Origin: Niveispirillum cyanobacteriorum
GTDB taxonomy: Bacteria; Pseudomonadota; Alphaproteobacteria; Azospirillales; Azospirillaceae
Length of the DNA: 64,000 nucleotides
Assembly (NCBI RefSeq): GCF_002868735.1
Contig: NZ_CP025612.1
Span: 62,001 to 126,000 of the forward strand
Reading direction: 5' to 3'
Under the pieces are notes generated by a model. The model worked only from the letters and a program-made list of their open reading frames with translations, was not told the DNA's origin and ran no database searches. A program made the position numbers and the translations under genes. Below, in pieces: positions 1 through 63,661 of the stretch. Numbering within the stretch: the first letter of the stretch is position 1; every line of letters starts with the position of its first letter.

Positions 1-825
1 CTTAGGCACCAGCAGCGGGGTGGCGGCGCTGGTCATGTCCTCGGTCAGGCTGTCGGTCAGATAGCCCAGGGCTTTCGGCGGCGTCCGGCCGGCGCGGCGC
101 ATCCGGTCAAACACCCGCCCCGCCACACGGCGGACCTGTTCGGGCGTCACCCCGGCATCGACCCACCGGCTGGCCGTGCGGTCATCGCCCGGCACCACCA
201 CCCGCACCGTATCCGGCCCCCAGGCGGTAAGGATCGCGGCGTCAAAGGCCTGGATGAGTGCATCTGCCGGCGATGGCTCCTCCGCCGACAACGCGACCGA
301 TGGCCCGCCGCCCCGGTCAGGTCCTGAAATTTCCTCGCGCCCGCTCGCGTCTTCAGCAGCAGTAATATTCTGATATCTGGATTCTGAAACCCGCCCGCGA
401 TGCAATAGCCGATTTTCCTTTAAGTCATTGATATCGGCTAAGTCATGGCCATTTTCAGGGATTTCTTGCGGTGTTTTCGCGGCGTTTTCAGCGCGCTTTC
501 GATGGCTTTTCGCGGCACTTTCGGCAAAGGCCTCACCTTCGGCCTGATTGGGGGCCAGTTCGGCCTCCGCCCGCTCGTCGCTGATCCTGCCGTCCGGCGT
601 GCGGTACAGGCGACCGGCAGCAAGCAACTGATCGCGAAGCGCCCGCCACTTGCGGACGGAACAGCCGCAGAATCGCGCGATATAGCCCTCATCGTCATCG
701 ACCGGGCCACCATGCAGGTAGATCAGGTCGATGACGACATTGTAGGCGCCCTTTTCTTCCAGGGTGAGTTTCATCATCCCGGTCAGGGCATCCTTGGGGT
801 TTCGCTTGTACCAGGGACGAGCCAT
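1..825 (-). CDS. DUF1376 (YdaU-type) phage protein, 3' end outside window
   Basis: The reading frame opens at ATG 825 and stays open for 275 codons to the window edge, so the C-terminus is missing. The N-terminus starts MARPWYKRNPKDALTGM and continues with TLEEKGAY, a DLIYLHGG stretch and a wHTH-like segment ending RTPDGRISDERAEAEL. This matches the DUF1376 family, short proteins found in phage replication regions. A charged linker follows residue 100, then a second conserved part (RVFDRMRRAGRTPPKALGYL) that may be a replication-associated C-terminal domain. The ribosome binding site GAGGGC lies 5-10 bases before the start. It is the last visible gene of the leftward operon, 7 bp after its neighbour. 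Confidence 0.85.
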   Translation of the reverse strand, partial: MARPWYKRNPKDALTGMMKLTLEEKGAYNVVIDLIYLHGGPVDDDEGYIARFCGCSVRKWRALRDQLLAAGRLYRTPDGRISDERAEAELAPNQAEGEAFAESAAKSHRKRAENAAKTPQEIPENGHDLADINDLKENRLLHRGRVSESRYQNITAAEDASGREEISGPDRGGGPSVALSAEEPSPADALIQAFDAAILTAWGPDTVRVVVPGDDRTASRWVDAGVTPEQVRRVAGRVFDRMRRAGRTPPKALGYLTDSLTEDMTSAATPLLVPK

Positions 826-5018: not shown

Positions 5019-5278
5019 TCGATCCCCAGCGCGGCCTTGTACAGCTCCAGCAGGCTGTCCATTTCCTGCCGGTCTTCCTTTTCCATCGCGCGGATGCGGA
5101 TGATCTGGCGCATGACCTTGGTGTCAAACCCGGTACCCTTGGCCTCGGCATAAATGTCTTTGATATCGTCCTGGATACCCTTCTTCTCCTCCTCCAGGCG
5201 CTCAATACGCTCCACAAAGGACCGGAGACGGTCAGCGGCAATGCCGCCCACATCCTGACTGGTTGCTGCATCGCTCAT
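5015..5278 (-). CDS. GapR family (DUF2312) nucleoid protein
   Basis: The 87-residue product matches the GapR family over its full length: RLRSFVERIERLEEEKKGI, then DIYAEAKGTGFDTKVMRQII and a C-terminal RQEMDSLLELYKAALG. GapR is an alphaproteobacterial protein that clamps overtwisted AT-rich DNA ahead of replication and transcription. The start at ATG 5278 is supported by GAGGA upstream and by family length; the frame runs further 5' without support. In this operon it lies with nucleases, so a role in phage DNA replication or transcription is plausible but inferred. Confidence 0.88.
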   Translation of the reverse strand: MSDAATSQDVGGIAADRLRSFVERIERLEEEKKGIQDDIKDIYAEAKGTGFDTKVMRQIIRIRAMEKEDRQEMDSLLELYKAALGIE

Positions 5279-50781: not shown

Positions 50782-51228
50782 GACGTGAGTTCCTTGAACT
50801 TTATTGTTACCGGTTCGGCCGGTCATGAAATTACATCCGGTCGCGGATGTATCATGAATGGCCGCCGTTGGGTATGACGAAGCCGGCCACGGCACTTAGC
50901 ACTTTCGTGATAAACGTCGCGGCGCCGCAAAGACCGCCCTGCCAAACAGCGGCCTTGAAGGAATTTCGGCTTTTATCGGGTGAACGTGGATCATTTCATG
51001 TGATCCCAATCACAAAGCCGCCGCAAACAGGGCGGCAAACCCCCGTTGCAAAATTTCCGGTATCAGAAAGTTTATTTCTGTGCGCAAAGCCCCCTCCTGT
51101 TTCGCCCGATGCCGGTTGCTATCAGGAAGACGAACGGAGATAGGGCAATCCGACATGCTGTCGAATTTTTTCAAGGGTAGCACAGCGATAAGCCCCCAGG
51201 GGGTAAGGATTCCCCCGGAAGGTAAGGA
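50782..51228. other. Upstream region of the efflux operon, ending in two iteron-like copies
   Basis: The 447-bp region has no gene. Positions about 50860-51180 include a GCCGCC...GGCGGC stem (around 51018) without U-tract. The promoter of the efflux operon should lie near 50800-50900. Two direct copies of the 17-bp motif are described separately at 51193-51228. Confidence 0.5.
51193..51228 (+). repeat. Two direct iteron-like copies
   Basis: CCCCC-AGGGG-GTAAGGA (51193-51209) and CCCCC-GGAAG-GTAAGGA (51212-51228) are 19 bp apart, nearly two helix turns. They follow the 3' end of the secreted-protein gene on the opposite strand and match the motif of the iteron field at 56.5-57.2 kb. Confidence 0.85.
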
Positions 51229-51891
51229 TCAGAAACCGCCCGGCACGCGATAGATATCCGGTTCCTTGGGCTTCTCAACATAGGACAACCGAAGGCTGGC
51301 ACCGGCCACTTCCGGCTGCGCATCGGGTTTGGCCGACGGCTTCTTGGTAATCCCCAGGATCAGCTCCGTCAGGCGGCCCTGCACGTCACTTCCCTGAAAA
51401 ACCAACACATTATCATCGCCCAGCGACTGGTTCAGGATCAGGCCTTCCTGCCGGTACCCCTGACTCAGAAGATAATTGCGCAGGGCGTTGGCGGTGCCGA
51501 CAATCTGTTCCGGCTTGGTCGGAGACCCGATCTCCTGCCCCCAGATCACATTCACCCGGAACAGCTTCTTGGTCTTGTACCCCAAGAGGTAAGCAATCAC
51601 CGCCGGCCCGCTTTCGGGCAGCAGGTCATTGACCTTCACGATGAGGGCCGTCGTTCGCTCCGTGGGTTCTTCCACCCGCTGGATTGCATCGCCTGACAGC
51701 TTGAAATCCTTACCGATGGCGTCGCGCACCTGTGCCTCGGTCATGCCGAAGCGGGCATTGCGGAACCCCTCCACCTGCGCCGGTTTGGCCGCCTGGGCCG
51801 GTGCCGCCGGACTGGTGGCAGGCCGATTCTGGGCGATTGCGGGGCTTACGGCCAGCATCGCCACCATGGCTGCCGTCAGTATCCAACGCAT
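51229..51891 (-). CDS. Secreted protein of unknown function next to parB
   Basis: The 220-residue product has a signal peptide (MRWILTAAMVAMLAVSPAIA) and a mature domain with FRNARFGMTEAQVRDAIGKD, then TALIVKVNDLLPESGPAVIA and YLLGYKTKKLFRVNVIWGQE, probably periplasmic. The start at ATG 51891 is set by the signal peptide. It is flanked on both sides by pairs of iteron-like copies, so it sits inside the replicon's binding-site region. Family not recognised. Confidence 0.7.
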   Translation of the reverse strand: MRWILTAAMVAMLAVSPAIAQNRPATSPAAPAQAAKPAQVEGFRNARFGMTEAQVRDAIGKDFKLSGDAIQRVEEPTERTTALIVKVNDLLPESGPAVIAYLLGYKTKKLFRVNVIWGQEIGSPTKPEQIVGTANALRNYLLSQGYRQEGLILNQSLGDDNVLVFQGSDVQGRLTELILGITKKPSAKPDAQPEVAGASLRLSYVEKPKEPDIYRVPGGF

Positions 51892-51901
51892 CGTCACGCC
51901 T

Positions 51902-51946
51902 TCCTTACGCCTTGGGGGAGAATCGACAATCCTTACCGTTTGGGGG
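51902..51946 (-). repeat. Two iteron-like copies, reverse orientation
   Basis: TCCTTAC-GCCTT-GGGGG (51902-51918) and TCCTTAC-CGTTT-GGGGG (51930-51946) are the reverse complement of the 17-bp motif, 28 bp apart. They lie between parB and the secreted-protein gene and could also affect the promoter of the latter. Confidence 0.85.
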
Positions 51947-51954
51947 AGCAGTTG

Positions 51955-51970
51955 CTTGCGACGTCGCAAG
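51955..51970. promoter_or_regulatory. Candidate parS site beside parB
   Basis: CTTGCGACGTCGCAAG is a perfect 16-bp palindrome ending 1 base before the parB stop codon (51972-51974, reverse strand). The core TTGCGACGTCGCAA recurs at 60987-61000, and with one end mismatch at 57829-57842. A palindrome of 14-16 bp, few copies and proximity to parAB are the features of ParB centromere sites; binding is inferred. Confidence 0.68.
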
Positions 51971-51971
51971 T

Positions 51972-52814
51972 TCAGCCCTTGATCAAACGGTCGATCCGGT
52001 CACGCAGGGCCGTCAGGCTCTGCACCTCATCGTCGGCCAACCGGCCAGCCCGATCCGACAGCTTATCGAGGCTGCGGCCCAGTTTGCGGGCGACAGTCAG
52101 GACTGGGCTTTCGACCACCGGCTCCGTCGGCTTCTGCTTGGCGACACGCAATTCCTTGATGGTCGCCCCTTCCTTGATGCGCGACCAGAGGGCAAGGCGC
52201 GCCTCCTCCCCTTCCGTATCGGCCAGGACGAACAGGTGGCTCTTGGTCACCTTGTCCCGGAATGCGGGATATTCAGCTTGCACCTTCTCCGGCAGGCCAC
52301 GCAGGGCCAGCAAGCGGGAGACCTCCGACTTGGACAGGCCGACAACGGCGGCCAATTGTTCCTGGGCATAATTATGCCGTTCACCCAGACGGGACAGGGC
52401 GGAGGCGGTTTCCAGCGCATCGAGATCGCGGCGCTGGAGATTCTCCACCAGCGCCACTTCCTCAATATCGCCCTTGGTGATGACGGCGAAGATCGTGGGC
52501 TTGCCCAGCAGGCCATGGGCACGCCAGCGCCGCTCCCCCGCAGCGATGATGTAACCGCCTTCGGCGTGCTTCTTCACCAGGATCGGTTGCAACAGTCCAT
52601 TGTGGCGGATGCTGTCGGCCAATTCCATCAGGGCGGCGGGATCGAAATGCCGGCGCGGTTGTTCCGGGTTGGGATGAACCTGATCCAGGTCCAGTTCCAC
52701 CAGTTCCGGGAAATCTGCGGAGGTGCCGAACAGCCGGTTCAACCCGCTGTCGCGCGGAACCGCCGGCGTGGCGGGGGCAAGCGCCGGATTGGTGCGGGCG
52801 AGCTTACGCGACAC
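51972..52814 (-). CDS. parB: ParB-type partition protein
   Basis: Translation probably starts at GTG 52814 (MSRKLARTNPALAPATP), overlapping parA by 11 bases. The 280-residue product has the ParB/Srx domain with VHPNPEQPRRHFDPAALMEL, ILVKKHAEGGYIIAAGERRW (the GERRWRA CTPase motif) and VALVENLQRRDLDALETASA, a helix-turn-helix (LAAVVGLSKSEVSRLLALRG) and a C-terminal dimer domain. It should bind parS sites and work with ParA to segregate the replicon. The sequence is plasmid/chromid-like rather than the chromosomal Spo0J type. Confidence 0.93.
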   Translation of the reverse strand: MSRKLARTNPALAPATPAVPRDSGLNRLFGTSADFPELVELDLDQVHPNPEQPRRHFDPAALMELADSIRHNGLLQPILVKKHAEGGYIIAAGERRWRAHGLLGKPTIFAVITKGDIEEVALVENLQRRDLDALETASALSRLGERHNYAQEQLAAVVGLSKSEVSRLLALRGLPEKVQAEYPAFRDKVTKSHLFVLADTEGEEARLALWSRIKEGATIKELRVAKQKPTEPVVESPVLTVARKLGRSLDKLSDRAGRLADDEVQSLTALRDRIDRLIKG

Positions 52815-53793
52815 GGGCTTCCTCCGTCTGGTCGGCTTCAAGCAGGGAACTGGCCACCTCCCGGAAGGGGGCGACAATGGCGGGGTCGGATGCCACATCC
52901 ACGGTCGGCTGTGCGGCGGCCACCGATTGCGGGAAAATGGTGGAGCGCGGCACCGGTGTGAAGATGCGAAGGCTGCCGCCAAACCGTTCCGTCAGGTCGG
53001 CCAGGGTGGCGCGGTCCTGCGTATGGCGCGACGTGAACATGGTGGGCAGGATGCCAATGATCGACAGGTCGGGATTACCCCGCCGCCGCACCTTGGCGAT
53101 GGTGTCCAGCAGCAGCGGCACGCCCATCATGGCCAGCATTTCCGTCTGCACGGGAATCAGCACGCCCGTCGCGGCCGCCAGCGCGTTCAACGTCATCATG
53201 CCCAGATGCGGCGGGCAATCCAGCAGGATATAGTCGTAGGAGCGCGACACGCTGGACAGCTTCTCCCGCAGGACCAGCGTGCCCATCGGTTCGGCCATCA
53301 ACTCCGTCTCCGCCGCCGACAGCAGGATGGTGGAGGGCAGAAGATGGAAGCGCCCGTCACATACCGGCATCACCGCACCGGATACGGGCTGATCCTTCAG
53401 CATGACGTGATAGGTGGTGCGCCCGGCGTCGGATGCCTCGGCTTGGCTGATACCCAGATGGACGGTCGCGCTGGCCTGCGGGTCGGCATCAACCAGCAGC
53501 ACGCGCTGACCCAAGGCCGCCAGGGCCGCGGCGATATTCACGGCGGCACTGGTCTTACCCACCCCGCCCTTCTGGTTGGAAATGGCGATAATGGTGGCGC
53601 GGTCACGCTGCCGCCGGGCCGGGGCCACTACGATATCGGCCACGGCCTGCGGGATCTTCTCCGTCCCGCCTTCCCAGCGCGAAACGCGGCCCTTATCGTA
53701 CCGGCGGCCCAGGCGGGCATTCAGCCAGTCGGCAAAGGCCTGCTGCGTATCCCCCCGCGCCTCGCGCGCAGCCCTCAACGCCGCCCCATCCAT
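52804..53793 (-). CDS. parA: ParA-type partition ATPase with N-terminal HTH-like domain
   Basis: The 329-residue protein has an XRE-like N-terminus of about 60 residues (ADWLNARLGRRYDKGRVSRW) and then the deviant Walker box SNQKGGVGKTSAAVNIAAAL, LLVDADPQASATVHLGI and YILLDCPPHLGMMTLNALAA. This is the type Ia ParA layout, where the extra domain lets the protein also repress its own operon. It drives replicon segregation with ParB and ATP. ATG 53793 is the start of the DNA-binding domain. Confidence 0.94.
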   Translation of the reverse strand: MDGAALRAAREARGDTQQAFADWLNARLGRRYDKGRVSRWEGGTEKIPQAVADIVVAPARRQRDRATIIAISNQKGGVGKTSAAVNIAAALAALGQRVLLVDADPQASATVHLGISQAEASDAGRTTYHVMLKDQPVSGAVMPVCDGRFHLLPSTILLSAAETELMAEPMGTLVLREKLSSVSRSYDYILLDCPPHLGMMTLNALAAATGVLIPVQTEMLAMMGVPLLLDTIAKVRRRGNPDLSIIGILPTMFTSRHTQDRATLADLTERFGGSLRIFTPVPRSTIFPQSVAAAQPTVDVASDPAIVAPFREVASSLLEADQTEEARVA

Positions 53794-53892
53794 GATGCGC
53801 CCCCAACTGCTTGTGGCCGTTTCTGACGTGGGAGCATAGGGAGTGGTTGACGGTCTGTCAACTGGTGGGGTTGTGGGGCGTCAACAGCGGGA

Positions 53893-54708
53893 TCAATAAT
53901 CCACCCCGTGCAGGAAGTCCGCTGCCGCGTTGGCCCATTCCACCGGGCTCTGGTCCAGGATGTCGATGCCGCCGCCGTCAATGGCGTGGAAGGCGAAGTC
54001 GGGGCGCATGCGGTGGGCGTCCAGCGCTGCCTGATAGATCATGTCGCCTGTATTCGTCAGGATCAGGGTCGGCTGGCGCAGGGCCATCAGCGGGCTTTCC
54101 TGGCGATACGCGAAGGCGGCGGCGTGGCCGTACCAGTAGGTGCCCATGGCATAGGCCTGCATGGCCTGCACCACATAGTCGGTGATGCGGTCCAGGCTGA
54201 CACTGCCGGCGGCATAGCGCTCGCGGATCTTCGCCACCTCCACCATGTGGGCGGCCTCTGGCAGGGCCGTGAAGGCCTTTTCCCGCTCCACTATATCGGT
54301 GATCAGGGCCTGACGCACAGTGTCGGAAATCAGCAGCGGGCCTCCCAGGATGCAGGCGCTGATCAGGTCAGGATAAAGGTTCGCGGCCTCATTGCTAACC
54401 AGTGCGCCGGTATGGTGGCCGCCGATGGCAGCGCGCCGAATACCCAAGGCGTCCAGCAATGGCGGGATGGCGGCGGCATAGTCGGCGATGCTGGGCGGTG
54501 ATACCGGCGGGTCGGAGAGGCCGAAGCCGGGCAGATCCAACGCGATGGGCCGTATGCCCCGGTCCAAAAAGGGCTGGAAAACATGGTCATATTCGTTGGC
54601 CGACATAATGGCCTGATGCACAAGGACCAGCGGCTTGCCCTTGCCGCCATCCCAATAGTGGATCTGGCCACAGGGACCGTCCGCATAACCACGCCGCAGC
54701 CGCACCAT
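53893..54708 (-). CDS. Alpha/beta hydrolase with altered nucleophile motif
   Basis: The 271-residue protein has the alpha/beta hydrolase order: LVLVHQAIMSANEYDHVFQP (oxyanion region), IALDLPGFGLSDPPVSPPS, the elbow AAIGGHHTGALVSNEA, LILTNTGDMIYQAA for the acid and AFHAIDGGGIDILDQ for the region of the last His. At the elbow, where G-x-S-x-G is expected, the sequence is GHHTG, so the usual Ser is absent. ATG 54708 has GGGAGGA upstream. Substrate unknown; lies between parA and rep. Confidence 0.82.
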   Translation of the reverse strand: MVRLRRGYADGPCGQIHYWDGGKGKPLVLVHQAIMSANEYDHVFQPFLDRGIRPIALDLPGFGLSDPPVSPPSIADYAAAIPPLLDALGIRRAAIGGHHTGALVSNEAANLYPDLISACILGGPLLISDTVRQALITDIVEREKAFTALPEAAHMVEVAKIRERYAAGSVSLDRITDYVVQAMQAYAMGTYWYGHAAAFAYRQESPLMALRQPTLILTNTGDMIYQAALDAHRMRPDFAFHAIDGGGIDILDQSPVEWANAAADFLHGVDY

Positions 54709-54803
54709 CTTTTCCTCCCCCAATCAGCTTAATGCCCGCAGCATCACCGGAAGCGGACCGGGGAACATCCCATGTCAACGCGGCTGTTCGACAGACGGTC
54801 AGA

Positions 54804-55016
54804 TCAGGCTTTCTTGACGAAGCAGGTCTTCAGGACTAGGCCCTTCACCTTTTCCACCTTGCCCTCGATCTCTTCGGGATCATCGGTCAGGTGGATGCTC
54901 TTGACGACGGTGCCGCGCTTCAGCGTGACATTGGCACCCTTGACCTTCAGGTCCTTGATCAGGGTGACGCTGTCACCCTCGGCCAGGATATTGCCGTTGC
55001 AGTCCTTCACGTCCAT
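54804..55016 (-). CDS. PhnA-domain small protein
   Basis: The 70-residue product MDVKDCNGNILAEGDSVTLI then KDLKVKGANVTLKRGTVVKS and IEGKVEKVKGLVLKTCFVKK matches the C-terminal PhnA domain family, small beta proteins once linked to alkylphosphonate use; the true role is unclear. A second start (ATG 55025) is possible; ATG 55016 fits family length. Single gene located between the hydrolase and rep. Confidence 0.85.
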   Translation of the reverse strand: MDVKDCNGNILAEGDSVTLIKDLKVKGANVTLKRGTVVKSIHLTDDPEEIEGKVEKVKGLVLKTCFVKKA

Positions 55017-55136
55017 TGTCCGCATCCCTTGCCAGTTAGTTGGTGCAGACCATAGTGCAGGTGGGGTAGCGACCCGATTTGCCGATTGCACATCGCGCCC
55101 CGGCCACAATGTGCATCTCTTGAAATTATGGCCAGA

Positions 55137-56459
55137 CTATCGACCCTGGCGTGCAGCCTGAAACTCAACCTCGCTGATGCTGCCCGATGTCAGCGAAGAC
55201 AGCACGGTGCGCATCGTCGCCTCATGGCTGCGCCGGGCCGTCTCCGCCGTTGCGGCATGGCCGGCGCGCAGCACCAGCTTGCGGGTGCCGCGCGCCGTTT
55301 CCTCGATCCCGATCACGCTGAGGTCACGCAGCAGGGGACCGGGCACCTGCTTCTGGCTGAGCGCATGACGGGCGGCGGCCCACAATGCCTCGGCATCGTC
55401 GGCATCGGGCAAGGGCGGGGCGGGTTCCGGCAGGGAGCGGGGTGCGGCGGCCAGGGCCGGCTTCGTCCCCTCCCCCGCCTCGCGCCGGGTTTTGCGGCCC
55501 GTGGAGCTGCGTTCACGTTCCAGGAAAGTGTCGGCAGCCTCGTCCTCATCCTTGGCGTGGAAATCGAGGGTCACTTCCTCGATCTTGCGGCCTTTTCGCT
55601 TCATCTTCTCTTCCGGCATTTCCACGCGGAAGGGAGCTAACTGGTTTACCTCGGCCATGGCGCGGTCGATGGTGCGGGTGCGCAGGATGCCGAAATCCTT
55701 GTACGCCCCCTCAGGCACATTCAGCAGTTTGCGCAGCGTTTCGATATCCAAGGTCAGAGAAGGATGGTCCATCTGATAGCGCTGCATCCCGATCTCATAG
55801 AGCTTCAGGGCGTAGGTGCTGGTGACCTTGACCATGGCCGGACCCGACAGACGCGCCCAGAGCTGGGACGAGCGCTGGAGTTCCAGAAATGCGTCGGTGA
55901 ACTGGAAATGGATGTCGGTGCTGTCGATCTCCACCTCATCCTCCGGCCGGACATAGGAAGAGAGGATGCGCAATTCCGCACGGCTGCGCCGCCCTCGGAA
56001 CGGGCCGATCACGACCAGGGAGCTTTCGTAGATCTCCTTCACCGCGTCGAAGATGCGCTCATTGCCCTTGTGGTTGCCGCGCACCACCTTCTTGGGCAGG
56101 CGGTAGAGCTTGTTGGCGAAATTCTGGCTGCCGGCCAGATGGATCATGAAATTCAGCATCTTCTGCGCCGGCAGGGATAAGCGCGAGCCGTTGGCGGGGT
56201 AGGAATAGACCGCCTCTGCCGCCTTGATCAGATGCTTGTAGCCGTCGCGTTCAAAGGTGGCAGAGGCCACCCTCGCCGTCTGACCCATCCGGTCCAGGGC
56301 CGGCAGGTTCTCCCCCCCACCACTGCCTTCCACCAGACTGCCTTCCAGGTCAATCACCACGCCGCTGTCGCCGGCAGAGGGGACATAGGGTACGATGGCA
56401 GCCAAGGGTTCATCCCGCACCGATTCGGAACTGCTGGTCTTGCGGCGGCTGGGTGGCAT
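55137..56459 (-). CDS. Rep_3-like replication initiator protein
   Basis: The 440-residue protein has two winged-helix-like parts: LPAQKMLNFMIHLAGSQNFA and IFDAVKEIYESSLVVIGPFR, then STYALKLYEIGMQRYQMDHP, LDIETLRKLLNVPEGAYKDF, RTIDRAMAEVNQLAPFRVEM and KGRKIEEVTLDFHAK, the pattern of RepE/pi-type initiators. A long charged C-terminal tail (about 330-440) is extra. It should bind the iterons at 56.5-57.2 kb and open the origin. ATG 56459 follows GAGAGGGG. The gene faces away from the iteron field, as is usual. Confidence 0.88.
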   Translation of the reverse strand: MPPSRRKTSSSESVRDEPLAAIVPYVPSAGDSGVVIDLEGSLVEGSGGGENLPALDRMGQTARVASATFERDGYKHLIKAAEAVYSYPANGSRLSLPAQKMLNFMIHLAGSQNFANKLYRLPKKVVRGNHKGNERIFDAVKEIYESSLVVIGPFRGRRSRAELRILSSYVRPEDEVEIDSTDIHFQFTDAFLELQRSSQLWARLSGPAMVKVTSTYALKLYEIGMQRYQMDHPSLTLDIETLRKLLNVPEGAYKDFGILRTRTIDRAMAEVNQLAPFRVEMPEEKMKRKGRKIEEVTLDFHAKDEDEAADTFLERERSSTGRKTRREAGEGTKPALAAAPRSLPEPAPPLPDADDAEALWAAARHALSQKQVPGPLLRDLSVIGIEETARGTRKLVLRAGHAATAETARRSHEATMRTVLSSLTSGSISEVEFQAARQGR

Positions 56460-56495
56460 GGCAGGGTCCCCTCTCTTGGGACGGAAGTTAGTCCC

Positions 56496-56522
56496 TTCCT
56501 TACAGCCTGTGCAAGTAAGGAA
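56496..56522. promoter_or_regulatory. Inverted half-iterons: rep operator
   Basis: TTCCTTAC (56496-56503) and GTAAGGAA (56515-56522) form an 8-bp inverted repeat, 37 bases before the rep start. The half equals part of the iteron. In Rep_3 plasmids, initiator dimers bind such inverted half-iterons and repress their own gene while monomers bind the iterons. Confidence 0.78.
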
Positions 56523-56527
56523 AGGTG

Positions 56528-56536
56528 TTTTCCACA
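56528..56536 (+). promoter_or_regulatory. Candidate DnaA box
   Basis: TTTTCCACA differs from the consensus TTATCCACA at one base. It lies between the rep operator and the first iterons, a typical place in initiator-dependent origins. A single box is weak evidence. Confidence 0.45.
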
Positions 56537-56547
56537 GGGATTTCCAT

Positions 56548-57155
56548 GCCTTACCGGATGGGGGAAACACTTACGCCCCGGGGCGTGGGTGAAATGCCCC
56601 CGAGACGTGGGGAAAGCCACCCCCGCGCTGTAAGGATGATGCCCAAAAACCCCAGCAAATCCGCCCGTCTCCGGTCCTTAGAATCTTTACTAGAATCTTG
56701 GAACACTAAACAGGATAGGATTTTTGGGTTGATTGAGAGATTTGGTGGGGATGGGTCTGCACTAACTTGAACCGATATTGCGTTCGATTATTTCCGACTC
56801 GTAAGGCCTCATCCTTACTGTTTGGGGGATTGGCGACTCCGAACGTGATGTGCTGGCCCATTCCTTACACCGCGGGGGAATCCTTACTGTTTGGGGGCCT
56901 GTCATGGGCAGCTTGGCACGCCCCCACGGCGTAAGGAGTAACTTCCCCCAAGCCGTAAGGAGACTCGGGATTTTACTTCTGCCCTGTGGTCCTGGGGACT
57001 CGGAGGATGGTGAGGCAGGTAAAGGGCTTCAGGCCCCCGAGAGGTAAGGATGCGCTCCCCCAGGCCGTAAGGATTCCGGGCGTATCCTTCATCCCCCAGG
57101 GAGTAAGGATGCGCCGAGTCCCAGCTATGCCGCCCACTCCCCCAAACGGTAAGGA
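56548..57155. repeat. Iteron field: proposed origin of replication
   Basis: Full copies of CCCCC-N5-GTAAGGA occur forward at 56620, 56921, 56945, 57034, 57057, 57093 and 57139, and reversed at 56812, 56862 and 56881; 56548-56564 has one mismatch. Degenerate copies are at 56568-56584 and 56597-56613. An AT-richer stretch (56675-56805) without copies is the best candidate for DNA opening. The field lies between rep and a PAS_5-type gene and contains no gene of its own. Origin function is inferred from initiator, operator and iterons together. Confidence 0.82.
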
Positions 57156-57160
57156 AAAGG

Positions 57161-57736
57161 TCAGCGTTCTGTGCTGCGCAGCGCCTCGACAAGGTCCAAC
57201 TCCATTTCCAGGCAACGCCAGTCCATGGAAGAGCGCAGATTTCCCTTGGGCAGAATCATCAACATCGCGAATCCGACTTCGCCCGTGTCGTCAAGCAAAG
57301 GCAGCATCAGACGGTGATAGCCCAGCTTTTCCGTGAAGACACGGAACCGGCGATCAGAGAAAACCGGGCCTCCCAATTCCAGCATGCGACGGTAAGCGTC
57401 GCGCACTTCCGCCAATGTCTGGCCTTTATAGCATTGCGACAACAGCTTGCCGGTCAGGGGGGAGCCGAACAGTTTCACCAGTCCCTGCCCCGCCCACAGA
57501 TACCGCGCCTGTTCCACGCCCAGGCGCAGGTCGACCAGAGCCAGGTTGTTGGCGATGCTGCGCAAGGCAACAGGGGTAAAGTCCAGGGCGCGCGGTATGC
57601 GAGGGCCAGCGGCGCATTCGCGCCACTGGTCACGGAGTTCCACCATTAGATCCGGCGTGTCCTGCAAAGGCTCGCCCGCGTGGGTTTCCCACATGCCAAA
57701 TGGCGCCGCGAGACGGGAAAAGATCAGCATGCCCAT
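57161..57736 (-). CDS. PAS_5-like domain protein
   Basis: The 191-residue product resembles the PAS_5 family common in Rhodospirillales: LRDQWRECAAGPRIPRALDF near the start, LGVEQARYLWAGQGLVKLFG, SDRRFRVFTEKLGYHRLMLP and GEVGFAMLMILPKGNLRSS. It is soluble. Members are often orphan sensor-like proteins without output domain. The stop lies 5 bases from the last iteron of the origin. The function is unknown. Confidence 0.75.
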   Translation of the reverse strand: MGMLIFSRLAAPFGMWETHAGEPLQDTPDLMVELRDQWRECAAGPRIPRALDFTPVALRSIANNLALVDLRLGVEQARYLWAGQGLVKLFGSPLTGKLLSQCYKGQTLAEVRDAYRRMLELGGPVFSDRRFRVFTEKLGYHRLMLPLLDDTGEVGFAMLMILPKGNLRSSMDWRCLEMELDLVEALRSTER

Positions 57737-57801
57737 GAATAAACCTTTCGATAAGTCAGAATGGCCTCTCGGTCATGAGGTGGCAACAGGCATTCAATTG
57801 T

Positions 57802-57816
57802 TGAGAATGATTATTA
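57802..57816. promoter_or_regulatory. Fur/Mur-box-like site
   Basis: TGAGAATGATTATTA matches the 7-1-7 Fur box (TGATAAT-N-ATTATCA) at 13 of 15 positions. It lies about 45 bases upstream of the rightward gene at 57863 and 65 bases upstream of the leftward PAS_5-type gene, so iron or manganese control of either is possible. Confidence 0.5.
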
Positions 57817-57828
57817 ATATCTCTATTG

Positions 57829-57842
57829 TTGCGACGTCGCAT
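57829..57842. promoter_or_regulatory. Candidate parS site, second copy
   Basis: TTGCGACGTCGCAT contains the perfect 12-bp palindrome TGCGACGTCGCA and matches the parB-proximal copy except for the last base. It lies in the intergenic region before the copper operon, 0.7 kb from the iteron field. Confidence 0.58.
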
Positions 57843-57862
57843 CTCCACAAGGATCAAGGAAC

Positions 57863-58369
57863 ATGCAGATCGACCGTCGCGGCCGTGCCCGTCCCCATCG
57901 CCCCGCCATCGCCGGCAACATGCCCTTTGTGGCCCTGTACCCATCGGCACGGCTGGCCTTGTGGGGCCTGCGCTATTGGGCGGCATGCACGGGACAGGGG
58001 CGGTGCCCTTCCCTGCTGCTGCGGGATGTTTATGCATCGGCGGGGGTTCCCCTTGCCCCTTTCAATATCGACCGGTTGATGCGGATATTCCTGATCGCGG
58101 CCCGGCATCCGCCGGCGTTGGGTTGCCCTGCCTGTACCCGGCTGACCGATGACGAGGCGGAATTGCTGAATGCGATGATCAATGCTCAAGGCGGAGACGG
58201 CGTCGGTTTGGAACCTATAATGACGGCATGGTTACCACCGGAGGCAGCGCAGACGGCGGGTGCCGTTTTGGAAGGGTATTCACGGCTGATGCTGGATGCC
58301 GGTTACGACCTGTCATCCGATCGGGTGCCGGTGTTGGAGCGGGCACCGGTGGGTAGCCGCTTGCATTGA
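57863..58369 (+). CDS. Hypothetical protein, 168 aa, upstream of copper genes
   Basis: ATG 57863 has AAGGA upstream. The protein (ALYPSARLALWGLRYWAACT, PAPFNIDRLMRIFLIAAR-like helices, GCPACTRLTDDEAELL) is soluble with a CPAC pair at about residues 92-95. It may be a regulator or metal-related protein. It lies about 60 bases before the next gene in the same direction. Family not recognised. Confidence 0.65.
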   Translation: MQIDRRGRARPHRPAIAGNMPFVALYPSARLALWGLRYWAACTGQGRCPSLLLRDVYASAGVPLAPFNIDRLMRIFLIAARHPPALGCPACTRLTDDEAELLNAMINAQGGDGVGLEPIMTAWLPPEAAQTAGAVLEGYSRLMLDAGYDLSSDRVPVLERAPVGSRLH

Positions 58370-58427
58370 GCCTGTGTGGGCTTGCGACAACAGAACATTG
58401 GACAGCGCCCCGCCCGCATGGCATCGC

Positions 58428-58811
58428 ATGGATATGACAGGCGCCATGATCATGCGGCAGGGTGGTTGGCGGGGCTGGACAGCGTGGATGCTGTTGCCGG
58501 CGCTGATGCTCGTCGCCCTTCTGCCGCGCGGCTACATGCCGGACACGGCCGCACTGGCGCGGGGCGCGTTGACCCTGACGCTGTGCCGTGTGGTGCAGGT
58601 GACGCTGGATGGAACTGGCACTCAGACGGTTGATCATGGGCTCGCCTGCCCCTTCGGCCTGCTGCCAGTGCCGTCAGGGCCGGTGGAACAGGCCGGCATT
58701 CCGTTGCCACGGCTTTGGGACCGGGTGCCGATGCTTCTGCTGCCGGGATTGATCCGGCATGTCCCGATCTGGGCCCATGGATTGGGTGCGCGGGGACCGC
58801 CGGGGATATGA
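58428..58811 (+). CDS. DUF2946-like membrane protein
   Basis: From ATG 58428 the 127-residue product has one N-terminal membrane span (WMLLPALMLVALLPRGYMPD) and a Cys-containing part (LTLCRVVQVTLDG, HGLACPFGLLPVPS). This resembles DUF2946, small proteins found with copper and cytochrome oxidase assembly genes. Several in-frame ATG codons (58434, 58446, 58452) make the start uncertain. It precedes the PCu(A)C gene by 51 bases. Confidence 0.65.
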   Translation: MDMTGAMIMRQGGWRGWTAWMLLPALMLVALLPRGYMPDTAALARGALTLTLCRVVQVTLDGTGTQTVDHGLACPFGLLPVPSGPVEQAGIPLPRLWDRVPMLLLPGLIRHVPIWAHGLGARGPPGI

Positions 58812-58862
58812 CCTCCCCTGCCCCAACCCTGTTCCATGATGTTTAACAGACGGAATTAATCC

Positions 58863-59357
58863 ATGCGCACGTTTGCCCATCGCCTGTTCCTTTCCGCCGC
58901 TGTCCTGCTGCTGGCCGGTGCCGCGCAGGCGGAGATCAGTGTCACCAGCCCCTTCTCCCGCGCCTCTGCCCCCACGGCAAAGGCCGGCGCCGCCTTCCTG
59001 ACGCTCAGTATCGATGCCGGCAGTGACAAGCTGCTGGGCGGCAGCAGCCCGGTGGCGGACAAGGTGGAACTGCATACCCACCTGATGCAGGATGGCATCG
59101 CCAAGATGCGTCCGGTCGATGGGGGAATCCCGGTCACAGCGGGAACGCCGACCGAGTTGAAGCCCGGTGGCTTGCATATCATGCTGATCGGCCTGAAGGC
59201 ACCGCTGAAGCAGGGTGAAAGCTTCCCCCTGACCCTGAACTTTGAGAAGGCAGGGGCGGTGAGTGTCAATGTGCCGGTACAGGGGCCGGGTGCCAAGGCA
59301 CCGATGGCCGAGCATGACCATGGCGGTCATGGCGAGCATTCCGGCCATCAGCACTGA
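58863..59357 (+). CDS. PCu(A)C copper chaperone
   Basis: The 164-residue product has a signal peptide (FLSAAVLLLAGAAQA) and the domain with the copper ligands: HTHLMQDGIAKMRPV and GGLHIMLIGLKAPL, the H-M-x(n)-M-x(n)-H-x-M pattern. A His-rich tail (HDHGGHGEHSGHQH) adds metal binding. PCu(A)C works in the periplasm to deliver Cu(I) to cytochrome c oxidase. It is 11 bases upstream of the SCO gene. Length is normal plus the tail. Confidence 0.94.
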   Translation: MRTFAHRLFLSAAVLLLAGAAQAEISVTSPFSRASAPTAKAGAAFLTLSIDAGSDKLLGGSSPVADKVELHTHLMQDGIAKMRPVDGGIPVTAGTPTELKPGGLHIMLIGLKAPLKQGESFPLTLNFEKAGAVSVNVPVQGPGAKAPMAEHDHGGHGEHSGHQH

Positions 59358-59368
59358 TTGTCCGTATC

Positions 59369-59983
59369 GTGAAGCGTCGGACATTCTGGACTGGCCTGGC
59401 CGTGTTGGCGACTGCCGCACTGCTGGGCACCGTTGTCCTGGTCGCTGACCGATTGTCACCGAAGAAGTCGGAACAAGGACAGGGGCGCGCCGCCATCGGT
59501 GGCCCCTTCTCCCTGACCGACCATACGGGGCAGCCGGTCACCCAGGACATTCTCAAGGGCAAAATCTCGCTGGTCTATTTCGGCTATAGCTTTTGCCCCG
59601 ACATCTGCCCGACCGATTTGCAGTTGATCGGGCAGGCGTTGGATCAGATGACGGACGAAGAACGCGCCGAAGCCCAGGCCCTGTTCATCACCATCGACCC
59701 GGAGCGTGATACCGGGCCGCAATTGGCGGGGTATGTGCCCCTGTTCCATCCGCAGCTCCGGGGCCTGACCGGTACCCCGGAGCAGATCGACGCTGCCGCC
59801 AAGGCTTACCGTGCTTATTATAAGAAGGTGTCAGCAGAAGAAGCGGGAACGTCCGACTATCTGATGGATCATTCCGCCTTCATCTATCTCATGGACCGCA
59901 ACGGGACCTTCGTCCGCGTTTTCGGCCATGGGGTGGAGCCGGCGGAAATGCTGGAATGGTTCCGTAAGGTCCGCGTGGGTTAG
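59369..59983 (+). CDS. SCO family copper chaperone/thioredoxin-like protein
   Basis: Starting at GTG 59369, the 204-residue protein has an N-terminal membrane anchor (TFWTGLAVLATAALLGTVVL), the motif FGYSFCPDICPTDL with the CxxxC copper pair, ITIDPERDTGPQLAGYVPLF and the copper-ligand His in YLMDHSAFIYLMDRNG. SCO proteins assemble the CuA site of cytochrome oxidase with PCu(A)C. It ends 4 bases into the converging oxyR gene. Confidence 0.94.
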   Translation: MKRRTFWTGLAVLATAALLGTVVLVADRLSPKKSEQGQGRAAIGGPFSLTDHTGQPVTQDILKGKISLVYFGYSFCPDICPTDLQLIGQALDQMTDEERAEAQALFITIDPERDTGPQLAGYVPLFHPQLRGLTGTPEQIDAAAKAYRAYYKKVSAEEAGTSDYLMDHSAFIYLMDRNGTFVRVFGHGVEPAEMLEWFRKVRVG

Positions 59984-60873
59984 GTTCCCCCAGGATGTAA
60001 GGTTCGGATCACCGCTGCCACCGCCTCCACGGCTGTGCGGCGGGGAAAGGTCTCGCGGAAGGCCAGACGAACCGTGCGGCCCGCCGTTCCGGGGGTCAGG
60101 GGGCGCGTCACCGTGCCAGACACGGGGGACGCGCGCCCCGCCACCGCCACGGCGGGCGCCAGGGTGCAGCCATAGCCGGCGGCCACCATGTTCAGCAGCA
60201 TTTCCAGGCTTGTTGCGCGAAGGTCGGCCCGCCCGCCGCCCGGCTGCTTACAGGCTGCGAGCGCCTGATCACGCAGGCAATGGCCATCGGCCAGTACCAG
60301 CATCTCGACATTCTCAAGCTGCGCTGAACTCACCTGCCCTTCCCCCGACAGCGGATGGGCTTCCGGAATGACCAGCAGGAACGGTTCGTCGAACAGCGGG
60401 ATGTCGACAATCCCATCCTCTGTCACATCGGTCGCCAGAAGGGCGGCATCCAGTTCATGACGGCGCAGACGCGTTAGAAGATTGTCGGTGATATCTTCCC
60501 ATAGCATCAGGTCCAGGTTTGGATAGTGCTGTTTCAGCGGGCCCAGCACGCGTGGCATCAAGTATGGTCCCAATGTCGGGATGACCCCAAGACGTAAGGA
60601 ACCTGCCAGCGGGTCGCGCCAGCCCTTGGCCAAGGCAGCGATGGCATCGGCATTCTCCACGGCGGCGCGGGCCAGCGGCAGGATCTGTTCCGCCGCCGGC
60701 GTCGGGACGACGGACTTATTTGTCCGCTCGAACAGGGTCATGCCCAGCATTTCCTCCAGTTTTCTCAACTGACCGGAAAGGGTGGGCTGGCTGACATGGC
60801 AGGCCTCTGCTGCCCGTCCGAAATGGCGATGGTCGGCCACGGCGATGACATAGCGCAGGTCCCGTAGATTCAT
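59980..60873 (-). CDS. oxyR: OxyR-type hydrogen peroxide regulator
   Basis: The 297-residue LysR protein has MNLRDLRYVIAVADHRHFGR, the DNA-binding ACHVSQPTLSGQLRKLEEML, GVIPTLGPYLMPRVLGPLKQ and DGHCLRDQALAAC, which holds the two redox cysteines of OxyR. It senses peroxide by a disulfide and activates catalase and related genes. ATG 60873 is set by the family N-terminus. Two iteron-like motifs occur inside the coding sequence (60584-60600 and 59987-60003), each with one mismatch. Confidence 0.94.
   Translation of the reverse strand: MNLRDLRYVIAVADHRHFGRAAEACHVSQPTLSGQLRKLEEMLGMTLFERTNKSVVPTPAAEQILPLARAAVENADAIAALAKGWRDPLAGSLRLGVIPTLGPYLMPRVLGPLKQHYPNLDLMLWEDITDNLLTRLRRHELDAALLATDVTEDGIVDIPLFDEPFLLVIPEAHPLSGEGQVSSAQLENVEMLVLADGHCLRDQALAACKQPGGGRADLRATSLEMLLNMVAAGYGCTLAPAVAVAGRASPVSGTVTRPLTPGTAGRTVRLAFRETFPRRTAVEAVAAVIRTLHPGGT
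59987..60003 (+). repeat. Solitary iteron-like copy at oxyR/SCO junction
   Basis: CCCCC-AGGAT-GTAAGGT has one mismatch in the last base of the 17-bp motif. It lies in the last codons of oxyR. A second one-mismatch copy, ACCCC-AAGAC-GTAAGGA, is at 60584-60600 inside oxyR. Confidence 0.6.
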
Positions 60874-60983
60874 CTTTTCACCCCAGAACGCATAATAGGT
60901 TCTGCCGATCATTATCATTCGAACAATCAATTGTACCAGTTGAAATGACCGAACTACCGTACGGGATGCTTGTCGTTTGGCCT

Positions 60984-61001
60984 GATTGCGACGTCGCAAT
61001 C
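60984..61001. promoter_or_regulatory. Candidate parS site, third copy
   Basis: GATTGCGACGTCGCAATC is a perfect 18-bp palindrome. It lies upstream of the ybaN-like gene, 20 bases before its start codon, and might also affect its expression. Core identical to the copy beside parB. Confidence 0.62.
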
Positions 61002-61021
61002 ACAGGTCAGGAGAAGAGATT

Positions 61022-61432
61022 ATGAAACGACCCTTTCCTGTGCCCCGGCCCATCGCCCGTGGTCTTTACCGGCTTGGTGCCAGCCTATTCCTTCTGCTGG
61101 GCATGGTCGGCATGGTTTTGCCGGTCATGCCGACGACGGTATTTCTGCTGCTGTCGGCATGGTGCCTGGTCAGGTTGGGTGATCCACGTGTGGATCGGCT
61201 GCTGCGGCATCCGCGTTTTGGTACGCCTTTGCGGCTGTTCCTGGAGCAGGGGCAGGTGACACGGCGGGGTAAGATGGCGGCGTTGGCAGGGATGAGTGTG
61301 GGAGCGGGCATCCTGTACATTGCCGCCGAGGGGCAACCCTGGCTGGCCGGCGGCGCGATCGGATTGCTGGCCCTGGCCGCCCTCTATGTCGTATCACGGC
61401 CCGAATCACGCCCCCAAACGGTAAGGAACTAG
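61022..61432 (+). CDS. YbaN family (DUF454) membrane protein
   Basis: The 136-residue product has GLYRLGASLFLLLGMVGMVL, PVMPTTVFLLLSAWCLVRLG, LRHPRFGTPLRLFLEQGQVT and a further C-terminal membrane pair, the layout of DUF454/YbaN with the conserved P-x-x-P-T-T. Three to four membrane spans are expected. Function unknown. ATG 61022 has AGGAGAAG upstream. The 3' end contains a perfect iteron copy. Confidence 0.88.
   Translation: MKRPFPVPRPIARGLYRLGASLFLLLGMVGMVLPVMPTTVFLLLSAWCLVRLGDPRVDRLLRHPRFGTPLRLFLEQGQVTRRGKMAALAGMSVGAGILYIAAEGQPWLAGGAIGLLALAALYVVSRPESRPQTVRN
61411..61427 (+). repeat. Solitary iteron-like copy in the ybaN-like 3' end
   Basis: CCCCC-AAACG-GTAAGGA is a full match inside the last codons of the ybaN-like gene and identical to the copy at 57139-57155. 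Confidence 0.8.
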
Positions 61433-61468
61433 ATCGAAGCCGCCTGTGGCTTTCCAACGGAAACTTTA

Positions 61469-61505
61469 AAAGCCCATGGTCGCCAACACATGGGCTTTCT
61501 TTTTT
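61469..61505 (+). terminator. Terminator of the ybaN-like gene
   Basis: AAAGCCCATG (61469-61478) pairs with CATGGGCTTT (61489-61498), followed by C and six T. It separates the gene from the converging AbrB-like gene, whose stop lies in the T-run. Confidence 0.9.
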
Positions 61506-61698
61506 ATGAGCCTTTGCCCGTTCGGCCCAGCATGCTTTTCAGCAGTTTCTCCCCCGGCGCCTTGGCCGGGGCTGCCAGTTCGACGCGGTGATCGGCGGTC
61601 AACAGCACAGTTAGACGGTCACCGGGCTTCAGGCCCAGATGCTCCAGCATCTCCGGTGTTAGTGTAATGCCGCCGTCGGGGCCGATGTTCGTGTCCAT
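61504..61698 (-). CDS. AbrB/SpoVT-type DNA-binding protein
   Basis: The 64-residue product has GPDGGITLTPEMLEHLGLKP and GDRLTVLLTADHRVELAAP, the swapped-hairpin AbrB fold found in transition regulators and antitoxins. No toxin gene is adjacent, so an orphan regulator is likely. ATG 61698 is preferred to TTG 61710. Confidence 0.82.
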   Translation of the reverse strand: MDTNIGPDGGITLTPEMLEHLGLKPGDRLTVLLTADHRVELAAPAKAPGEKLLKSMLGRTGKGS

Positions 61699-61759
61699 GG
61701 CATGATCCAAAATGGTTTGGTCACCAGATTAGGACGGGCCACGTGGCAGGGCAATGGGA

Positions 61760-62509
61760 TCAGGAGGGTGGCTTTGACACCAGCAGATCGGGTATCGCCC
61801 CCTCCACCCGCAGCTGTGCCAGCCCTTGGTTGAACGCATCGAGAATCTGTTGGGCATTCGGGTGGTCGCGGGCAACGATCAGATGCAGGGTTGCCTCGCT
61901 GGCGGCGGGACCGGGTACGGTGGCCAGCTTCTCCCGTTCAGACAGCTCTGCACGGCGGGCAACGGCGATGCGTTCATCCTCCACCATGAAATCGGCCCGG
62001 TCGCCCACAATCATCGACAGGCAACTGCGCTGCTGGGTCGGGGTCACCCGCTGCACATCACCCTGCCGGATCAGAAAATCCATCCAGGGCGGCAAGCCAT
62101 AACCGACGGCAGCGCAAACCCGCTTGCCCTTCATCCAGCCGCTGGCCATGGCGGCCCGTTCATTGCCCAGGGCCACGATCAGATGCTGCCGCACCGTCGT
62201 GATCGGTTCGGAGTACAATACTTCCCGCATGCGCTGTTCGGTGCGGATATAGGGGAAGGTCCCATCGAACCGGTGGGCTAACAGGCCTTCATAGCCGCGG
62301 CGCCACGGTTCTACGGTTAAGGTCACGGGCTGACCGGATTTGGCGAAGGCCTGCCGCACCAGCGCAGTGACAGGGCCGCCGTCCGGCAGCCTGTCATCCA
62401 CATAGGGGGCATAGTCAGTGCCCGTAACCAGCCTTAACGGTGCTGTCTCGGCCAATGCCGACACGGGGGCAAGCGACAAGACCAGCAGGACCATCGCCAA
62501 ACGCCGCAC
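61760..62509 (-). CDS. Extracellular solute-binding protein, family 3-like
   Basis: The 249-residue product has a signal peptide (LAMVLLVLSLAPVSALA) and the family 3 pattern: LVTGTDYAPYVDDRLPDGGP, FAKSGQPVTLTVEPWRRGYE, FDGTFPYIRTEQRMREVLYS and a C-terminal LQ/NQGLAQLR-like helix. No transporter permease lies nearby, so it may be an orphan receptor. Translation begins at GTG 62509 or ATG 62494; the former fits the signal peptide. Confidence 0.85.
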   Translation of the reverse strand: MRRLAMVLLVLSLAPVSALAETAPLRLVTGTDYAPYVDDRLPDGGPVTALVRQAFAKSGQPVTLTVEPWRRGYEGLLAHRFDGTFPYIRTEQRMREVLYSEPITTVRQHLIVALGNERAAMASGWMKGKRVCAAVGYGLPPWMDFLIRQGDVQRVTPTQQRSCLSMIVGDRADFMVEDERIAVARRAELSEREKLATVPGPAASEATLHLIVARDHPNAQQILDAFNQGLAQLRVEGAIPDLLVSKPPS

Positions 62510-62543
62510 CTGATGCCCCCGAAGACCATCAAAACCCTGATCA

Positions 62544-62563
62544 GACTATGGTTAACCATAGTC
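62544..62563. promoter_or_regulatory. Perfect 20-bp palindrome upstream of the solute-binding gene
   Basis: GACTATGGTTAACCATAGTC is self-complementary over 20 bases, 35 bases before the start codon of the solute-binding protein gene. It looks like an operator for a dimeric regulator; no known consensus is recognised. Confidence 0.65.
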
Positions 62564-62594
62564 CGTGGTCAATCGAAGGTTAGAGAATTCTATG

Positions 62595-62611
62595 CCCCCA
62601 GGCGGTAAGGA
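62595..62611 (+). repeat. Solitary iteron-like copy downstream of hemH
   Basis: CCCCC-AGGCG-GTAAGGA is a full match, ending 3 bases before the hemH stop. A further full match, CCCCC-CAGCG-GTAAGGA, lies inside hemH at 62711-62727. These are the rightmost copies seen. Confidence 0.8.
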
Positions 62612-62614
62612 TGA

Positions 62615-63661
62615 TCAGAGCCAGCCTGCCAGTTCCCGCTCCACAATCCCGCGCAGCAGGTCGATATGATCAGGGTGATCATTCAGGCAGGGGATGTATG
62701 TGAAGTCCGTCCCCCCAGCGGTAAGGAAAGTCTCCCGAATACCCTGATTTACTTCTTCCAGCGTCTCCACACAGTCGCTGACAAAGGCTGGGGCCAGGAT
62801 CGCCAGCTTCTTCACACCTTGTTCCGGCAGCGCCTTGACCATGGGTTCCAGATAGGGCTGCAGCCATTCCGTCCGGCCAAAACGGGACTGGAAGGCATGG
62901 GTCAGCATCGATGCATCCATGCCCAGCTTTTCCCGCAGTAGGCGGGCCGTTTTCAGGCAATAGCAGTGATACGGGTCGCCCTTTTCCAGGTACATCTTCG
63001 GCAGGCCGTGGAAGGAAGCGATGATACGCTCCGGCTTCCAGGGCAGGCTGTCCAGATGGCGGGAGACGCCGGCGCCCAACGCCTCGATATAGGCCGGGTC
63101 GTCGTGATAAGTGGGCACGGTGCGGATGGCCGGCTGCCGCCGCAGGGTCATCAGATGGCGGAAGGCATGGTCACAGGCTGTCGCCGTGGTCGTGGCGCTA
63201 TATTGCGGGTAAAGCGGGAACAGCAGGATACGCTCGCACCCTTGTTCGATCAGGCTGTCGATGCCCTTGGCGGTGGAGGGATGGCCATAGCGCATGCCCC
63301 ATTCCACAATGATCCGGTCATCGTGCGTGCCCTTTAGAGCGGCACGCAGACCATCGGCCTGGCCACGGGTAAAGGTCTTTAGCGGGCTTTCATTGCGTTC
63401 CTGATTCCAGATGCCCGCATAGGCATGACCGCTCTTCTTGGGTCGGAAGGTCAGGATGATGCCCTGCAGGATGGGCTGCCAGATGGCCTGCGGCACCTCT
63501 ACCACGCGCCGGTCGGACAGGAACTCCGACAGATACCGGCGCATCGACCAATAATCAGTGGCTTCCGGTGTTCCCAGATTGATCAGCAACACGCCAATCT
63601 TGGGCGCCTTGACGGGCGGATGGCCGGCGGGCAGGGCGGGCGAGGGGCTGTTCTGGGTCAA
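62615..63661 (-). CDS. hemH: Ferrochelatase
   Basis: The 348-residue protein shows IGVLLINLGTPEATDYWSMR, YLSEFLSDRRVVEVPQAIW, GMRYGHPSTAKGIDSLIEQG, LLFPLYPQYSATTTATACDH, ASFHGLPKMYLEKGDPYHCY with the metal-binding His, and FVSDCVETLEEVNQGIRETF. It inserts ferrous iron into protoporphyrin IX, the last step of heme synthesis. Presence of this core gene on the rep/par replicon supports a chromid. The iteron at 62711-62727 encodes FLTAGG within a conserved stretch. Confidence 0.97.
   Translation of the reverse strand: MTQNSPSPALPAGHPPVKAPKIGVLLINLGTPEATDYWSMRRYLSEFLSDRRVVEVPQAIWQPILQGIILTFRPKKSGHAYAGIWNQERNESPLKTFTRGQADGLRAALKGTHDDRIIVEWGMRYGHPSTAKGIDSLIEQGCERILLFPLYPQYSATTTATACDHAFRHLMTLRRQPAIRTVPTYHDDPAYIEALGAGVSRHLDSLPWKPERIIASFHGLPKMYLEKGDPYHCYCLKTARLLREKLGMDASMLTHAFQSRFGRTEWLQPYLEPMVKALPEQGVKKLAILAPAFVSDCVETLEEVNQGIRETFLTAGGTDFTYIPCLNDHPDHIDLLRGIVERELAGWL

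Follow-up and report, generated by a model that had tools for sequence, protein, structure and literature searches.

Dispersed and conserved copies of a predicted Rep_3 initiator site around the origin of a secondary replicon in Azospirillaceae

Here we examine a 17-bp iteron-like motif, CCCCCN5GTAAGGA, in a stretch of 64,000 nucleotides (hereafter the window; positions 62,001 to 126,000 of contig NZ_CP025612.1, assembly GCF_002868735.1) from the replicon C2 of Niveispirillum cyanobacteriorum. The motif forms an array at the predicted origin, upstream of a gene for a Rep_3-type initiator (rep), and it recurs as scattered copies, called satellites below, on both sides of this array. Our best explanation, to which we assign a probability of about two thirds, is that the satellites are dispersed initiator sites kept by selection, and that they restrain initiation by titration, by handcuffing, or by both. 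The identity of the sites, their replicon specificity, their conservation, their placement at gene 3' ends and their proximity to parS are supported by the sequence comparisons given here; binding by Rep, a negative effect on initiation and a link to ParB are what we infer.

Results

All copies of the motif that a first-pass annotation of the window had listed are present at their places and on their strands (Table 1). With up to two mismatches allowed, the window contains 25 matches, as compared to a mean of 5.3 and a largest value of 12 in 100 shuffles. A scan of the whole genome (6,048,780 bases in five contigs), which that annotation had suggested, yields 19 exact copies, and all of them are located on C2 (1,254,521 bases; positions 62217-128007). 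The four other contigs, the main chromosome included, have no exact copy, and a reversed control pattern is matched only once genome-wide. One-mismatch matches outside the origin region, on the other hand, are at background, with 27 in all versus 36 for the control.

Eighteen of the exact copies fall within C2:113193-128007, a stretch of ca 15 kb around rep. Ten of the 19 constitute the origin array and nine lie outside it, among them two that had not been listed before, one at window position 217 and one at C2:127991, just beyond the window (L113). The copy at 217 is located within a predicted gene (1-825, minus strand), ca 56 kb from rep. It is probably a chance match, because in G010, the closest relative, no exact copy lies outside a stretch of 16 kb around its rep, which holds all 18; contrary to this interpretation, it satisfies the flanking-base preference described below.

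The identity of the motif as an iteron is best seen from its co-occurrence with Rep. Among 40 genomes, that of N. cyanobacteriorum included, 13 encode a close Rep (at least 76% identity) and 13 have the motif, and these two sets coincide; no exact copy is found in the other 27, one of which (G007) belongs to the same genus and has a distant Rep only. The 34 named loci with a Rep relative stem, by record title, from Niveispirillum, Nitrospirillum, Aerophototrophica, Azospirillum and one alphaproteobacterium, all Azospirillaceae. Each of them has 7-18 exact copies in the fetched DNA, versus 0 for the reversed control, and in each the array lies upstream of rep, as expected for the repeated sites of a Rep_3 system.

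The rep product is predicted to contain both winged-helix domains of a Rep_3 initiator. Its match to Rep3_C (WH2, PF21205) is above the Pfam cut-off (E 1.4e-10), and that to Rep3_N (WH1, PF01051) is just below (E 7e-4, 20.3 bits versus a cut-off of 22.4); in a sphingomonad relative (L192), PF01051 is above the cut-off. Inverted half-iteron operators upstream of rep are known from autoregulated Rep_3 genes, and what appears to be such an operator is present in all 34 loci, whereas a looser form of it occurs in none of 1318 control stretches. A further indication comes from four sphingomonad plasmids, the Rep of which is 36-37% identical over ca 62% of the query. Upstream of rep, they carry CCCCCN5GTCAGGA, with one base changed and equal spacing (6, 6, 2 and 5 copies by the strict pattern within 12.8 kb of fetched DNA). 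On the basis of the co-occurrence, the operator and the variant motif that accompanies the sphingomonad Rep, the motif most likely belongs to Rep, as its binding site.

The bases around the motif were compared for 260 origin copies and 97 other copies from the 34 loci, after copies too near a locus end had been dropped. Outside the search pattern, G or T stands at base -1 in 92% of the origin copies and 89% of the others, and T stands at base +17 in 67% and 84%, respectively. Within N5, the first two bases are mostly purines in both sets, and T is rare at positions 1-4. As judged from these preferences, the full site is about 19 bp long, [G/T]-CCCCC-N5-GTAAGGA-[T/A], and the non-origin copies would be of the same site class as the origin copies.

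The satellites are not placed at random relative to genes. A set of 155 deduplicated non-origin copies was used, which remained after removal of all origin copies, of 18 duplicates and of 10 copies at an edge. Gene ends were taken from a home-made gene finder, which recovered 40 of 42 annotated 3' ends on one record. In these raw counts, 94 copies are intergenic (null 13.9%) and 92 are at most 40 bp from a gene 3' end (null 6.7%). Only 12 are within the same distance of a gene 5' end (null 7.3%), which is no overall enrichment, and placement mainly at gene starts, as expected for transcriptional operators, is thus not what is observed. There is one class of copies in which the motif's own TAA serves as the stop codon. 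When one copy was sampled from each of 36 homologous groups, 13-19 were near a 3' end, with 2.4 expected.

Satellites are also retained at the same genes in related species. They occur after the gene at 51229-51891 in seven genomes, after hemH in five and inside hemH in eight, and those after parB recur among relatives as well. In Azospirillum and Nitrospirillum satellites are found at the end of rep, and others flank an Azospirillum coiled-coil gene. The 51229 gene is situated ca 70, 24 and 24 kb from rep in N. irakense, SYP-B3756 and RU38E, respectively, and it is still bracketed by convergent copies. In the alignments, the fixed bases of the motif are kept while N5 and the flanks drift; the second copy after the 51229 gene has decayed in some species. 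An equal density on the main chromosome or a lack of the non-origin copies in close relatives had been named beforehand as findings that would speak against a dispersed system, and neither is seen.

The relatives' copies off the rep contig (L127-L131, L135-L138) were checked for gene context only. Those in L127-L131 and L136-L138 could be on any replicon, including the main chromosome in fragmented genomes, and the L135 locus matches Azospirillum plasmids that have traC and are typed as mobilizable. L135 and L136 each contain one exact copy just past a gene stop (5180-5196 and 5473-5489, respectively). A motif pair of TSH64 lies ca 340 kb from rep (L139), which may be an assembly effect of the 7.5-Mb contig.

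A further footprint of selection is inside hemH. All six codons at the satellite (312-317) are identical in eight Niveispirillum genomes, and this is the longest invariant run of the gene, the next-longest being five codons at 68. The third base is invariant in just 80 of the 248 codons with invariant amino acids. In hemH orthologues from genomes without this Rep (L163-L167), both residues and codons differ at this place. Because of the codon identity and the differing Rep-less orthologues, the copy appears to be under synonymous constraint and not merely driven by the protein, as the first-pass annotation had considered for the coding copies. For oxyR this consideration is harder to set aside: the rare TTA codon (1.3% of leucine codons) is kept in the seven genomes where the copy is found, but the protein motif is conserved too, and the oxyR copy is therefore judged to be weaker evidence. 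The copies at 60584, 61411 and 62711 are indeed in coding sequence, as had been stated for oxyR, the ybaN-like gene and hemH, while the one at 62595 is intergenic.

It can be added that hemH has one match in the whole genome. C2 therefore carries a probably essential gene, and would then count as a chromid. The hemH of C2 (62615-63661) has 28-31% identity to the single hemH match of G004, G007 and G011. Since it is of a different lineage from the hemH of these genomes, the gene appears to have been replaced or acquired in part of the group.

Several satellites are located beside a second type of site, the palindrome TTGCGACGTCGCAA. In 17 genomes searched, 33 of its 38 exact places are on the rep-bearing contig, and the window contains two exact copies together with variants. 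It is probably the parS of C2. Of 32 such parS-like sites used, 12 are at most 120 bp from a Rep site (null 7%) and 7 at most 50 bp (null 4%), although several of the pairs share one ancestry and the independent events are fewer. Six exact palindromes, five on other contigs and one far away on the same contig, were left out; none of them is near a Rep site, and with them the first figure becomes 12 of 38.

Finally, the reach of the satellites was followed over replicons of different size in nine complete records, with origin copies counted apart; this series is descriptive and not a tested correlation. The sphingomonad plasmids (127-353 kb) have one copy after rep in all four and two in the 3' part of parB in three of the four. 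With the relaxed pattern CCCN7TCAGGA, 14 of 34 matches on these plasmids are away from rep, and one of them (W03:186542, on the 353-kb plasmid) is site-like, so that a far copy there is possible. Azospirillum ramasamyi (545 kb) has two exact non-origin copies and a one-mismatch copy at the rep stop, and A. lipoferum p4 (645 kb) has three. The nine of C2 (1.25 Mb) include the one that is probably due to chance. N. viridazoti chromosome 3 (1.60 Mb) has eight, which extend 17-20 kb to both sides if the record is circular, and in N. irakense copies extend ca 70 kb from rep.

The same genome has another large replicon, C3 (1.0 Mb), which carries a separate Rep_3-like gene and a two-part iteron, TGTGCCN6CACGG (L184, G000:C3:132001-152000). 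Each of the four genomes that were searched has between one and three further exact copies of this iteron at a distance of ca 3.5 kb, near presumed par genes. Far dispersal is not evident in these genomes, with a pattern that is near background (14 versus 7 for the control in G000) and maybe too strict.

The features of the window are collected in Table 1. In addition, a gene for a PAS_5 protein (57161-57736), which has a below-cut-off match to the cell-cycle regulator MopJ, directly adjoins the origin array, and a PAS_5 gene is likewise found beside the array in L078-L081 and L084.

Table 1. Positions of the motif copies and neighboring features in the window.
Feature	Position	Strand	Remarks
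Two satellites	51193..51228	+	Copies at 51193 and 51212, directly 3' of the stop of the 51229-51891 gene; copies after the orthologue in six other genomes
Gene without Pfam/NCBIfam family	51229..51891	-	Bracketed by convergent satellites in all seven genomes where found
Two satellites	51902..51946	-	Copies at 51902 and 51930, in the gap that separates parB from the next gene; the parS-like palindrome is adjacent
parS-like palindrome TTGCGACGTCGCAA	51956..51969		At the parB end; nearest satellite 9 bp away
parB	51972..52982	-	Longest open reading frame; gene-finder start 52814; Pfam ParB_N E 2e-23, HTH_ParB E 9e-11
parA	52804..53793	-	Pfam AAA_31 E 4e-54
rep, initiator of the Rep_3 type, which is proposed to bind the motif	55137..56459	-	Pfam Rep3_C and Rep3_N; start from home-made gene finder
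Proposed rep operator for autoregulation: inverted half-sites TCCTTACTTG-N8-GTAAGGA	56497..56521	-	Upstream of rep
Origin array	56548..57155	both	10 exact copies and one with one mismatch (56548, -)
One-mismatch satellite	59987..60003	+	At the 3' ends of the gene 59369-59983 and of oxyR; exact and with equal spacing in L079, L080, L081
One-mismatch copy inside oxyR	60584..60600	+	Encodes SLRLGV; rare TTA codon conserved
Second exact parS-like palindrome TTGCGACGTCGCAA	60986..60999		Same sequence as at 51956..51969
Satellite at the 3' end of the ybaN-like coding sequence (last codons)	61411..61427	+	Also in L078, L081
Satellite past hemH, intergenic	62595..62611	+	3 bp separate it from the hemH stop; shared with L078, L079, L080, L081
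Satellite inside the hemH coding sequence	62711..62727	+	Codons 312-317; invariant 18-nucleotide run in eight genomes

Discussion

The mechanism that we propose is negative control by titration or handcuffing, tuned by ParB, and is modelled on chromosome 2 of Vibrio cholerae. Rep would initiate replication at the origin array and would regulate its own gene through the inverted half-sites. Once the origin fires, the satellites adjoining it would be the first to be duplicated. The duplicated satellites could then take up Rep, pair with origin-bound Rep, or do both, with the result that the chromid fires once per cycle. At the satellites beside parS, ParB may relieve or tune the restraint, by which segregation would be tied to replication.

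If the size series records a transition, it would be the domestication of a plasmid to chromosome size, in which initiator sites, starting from rep and parB, come to occupy gene 3' ends and even essential coding sequence, and the initiator organizes around the origin a domain where copy control, folding and the loading of ParB are coupled. We offer this scenario tentatively and regard it as doubtful at present.

We have also considered that the satellites might be architectural, with Rep bridging the sites so that the region of the origin is folded or marked as a domain for segregation, apart from any control of initiation. The spread around the origin (15 kb here, up to ca 70 kb in N. irakense), the paired and convergent arrangements and the parS neighbors would all suit such a role. 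Handcuffing predicts the same layout, however, and this option, which we find unlikely, thus overlaps with the best explanation.

Another option is that Rep is also a local transcription regulator and that the satellites are operators of nearby genes, such as the par region, the 51229 gene and hemH. This we hold to be quite unlikely as a general account, since copies near starts are at the null level while those near stops are far above it. Moreover, several copies are inside or overlap coding ends, and the neighboring genes have no evident common function. There are nevertheless observations in its favor: the 51229 gene and the Azospirillum coiled-coil gene keep their bracketing sites in changed surroundings, and RctB, the initiator of V. 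cholerae chromosome 2, weakly affected one of the two genes tested (PMC11711613).

The restraint by satellites, to which we now return, has to be weighed against a number of findings that speak against it. The two satellites at 51902 and 51930 have their centers 19 and 47 bp upstream of the start of the 51229-51891 gene, and in the sampling of 36 groups the mean number of copies near 5' ends is 5.7, as compared to 2.6 expected from the null. Because this group-level count exceeds the null, a minority of operator-like satellites could regulate transcription. Common descent inflates the raw copy counts. A. argentinense p5 (361 kb, typed as conjugative) has origin copies only, which shows that satellites are not needed by every member. 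The AlphaFold model of Rep is of a quality (mean predicted local distance difference test score, pLDDT, of 53) that supports neither a fold search nor a view of how Rep would read DNA, and a profile search of the PDB with Rep gave no sequence match at E 0.01. In V. cholerae, according to PMC11711613, mutation of three of the most prominent new RctB sites on chromosome 1 had a minimal effect.

The two last options can be dealt with briefly. That the motif is the ParB centromere (parS) and not a Rep site is highly improbable: the copies do cluster at the origin and beside parB, but the motif is not palindromic, a related motif is present on the sphingomonad Rep plasmids, and a separate conserved palindrome beside parB tracks the rep contig. 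In addition, 17 of 19 Azospirillum motif loci (L092-L103, L105-L111) have no match to C2's ParB in the fetched DNA, the other two (L108 and L110) having one of 43-45%. ParB, for which binding tests had been suggested along with the initiator, is on account of the separate palindrome and these loci unlikely to bind the motif. It is equally hard to believe that the dispersed copies are due to chance or protein sequence, as might be said of the copy at 217 and the one in oxyR, in view of the 19 matches versus 1 for the control, the retention at orthologous genes and the codon invariance in hemH.

Comparison with Known Systems

Plasmids of the P1 and F type have control iterons (incA, incC) next to rep, and these additional iterons follow the gene on its downstream side. 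In Azospirillum and Nitrospirillum, the copy located at the rep stop has the same position, but the Azospirillaceae copies extend to tens of kb.

The satellites are predicted initiator sites outside yet near the origin of the same replicon, as in an initiator-titration locus, and they share this position with datA of Escherichia coli. According to PMC3937223, datA differs in that it promotes DnaA-ATP hydrolysis, a DnaA-specific mechanism. The crtS site of V. cholerae also lies outside an origin and is bound by a secondary chromosome's initiator (PMC11711613), but it resides on the main chromosome and enhances initiation. A crtS-like trigger was rejected here, with 0 exact copies on the contigs other than C2. 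Of the datA- or crtS-like role that the first-pass annotation had offered, the datA-like part is plausible and the crtS-like part is not supported.

The closest likeness is to V. cholerae chromosome 2, a secondary chromosome that likewise has additional initiator sites of its own near its origin. As described in PMC3937223 and PMC6090056, RctB is titrated and replication inhibited by six RctB sites that span ca 74 kb and are situated ca 40 kb from the origin, and ParB2 competes with RctB at inhibitory sites adjoining parS2 (PMC6090056). The initiator and the site are different ones there. The Azospirillaceae copies, which are predicted sites, are found on both sides of the origin; most are at gene 3' ends, some adjoin parS, one is in hemH, and they recur at orthologous genes in several species.

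In the open-licence literature searched, we found no description of the iterons of these Azospirillaceae replicons, and distant initiator sites on a secondary chromosome were found for Vibrio only. PMC13342612 counts Azospirillum among the genera with a large extrachromosomal share and calls for timers beyond crtS; no word starting with iteron occurs in its main text. A plasmid-type Rep_3 system in Azospirillaceae would present a Vibrio-like layout that bears strong marks of evolutionary conservation, among them the synonymous constraint in the heme gene hemH, and the question of how a plasmid becomes a once-per-cycle chromosome would gain a second testable lineage next to Vibrio.

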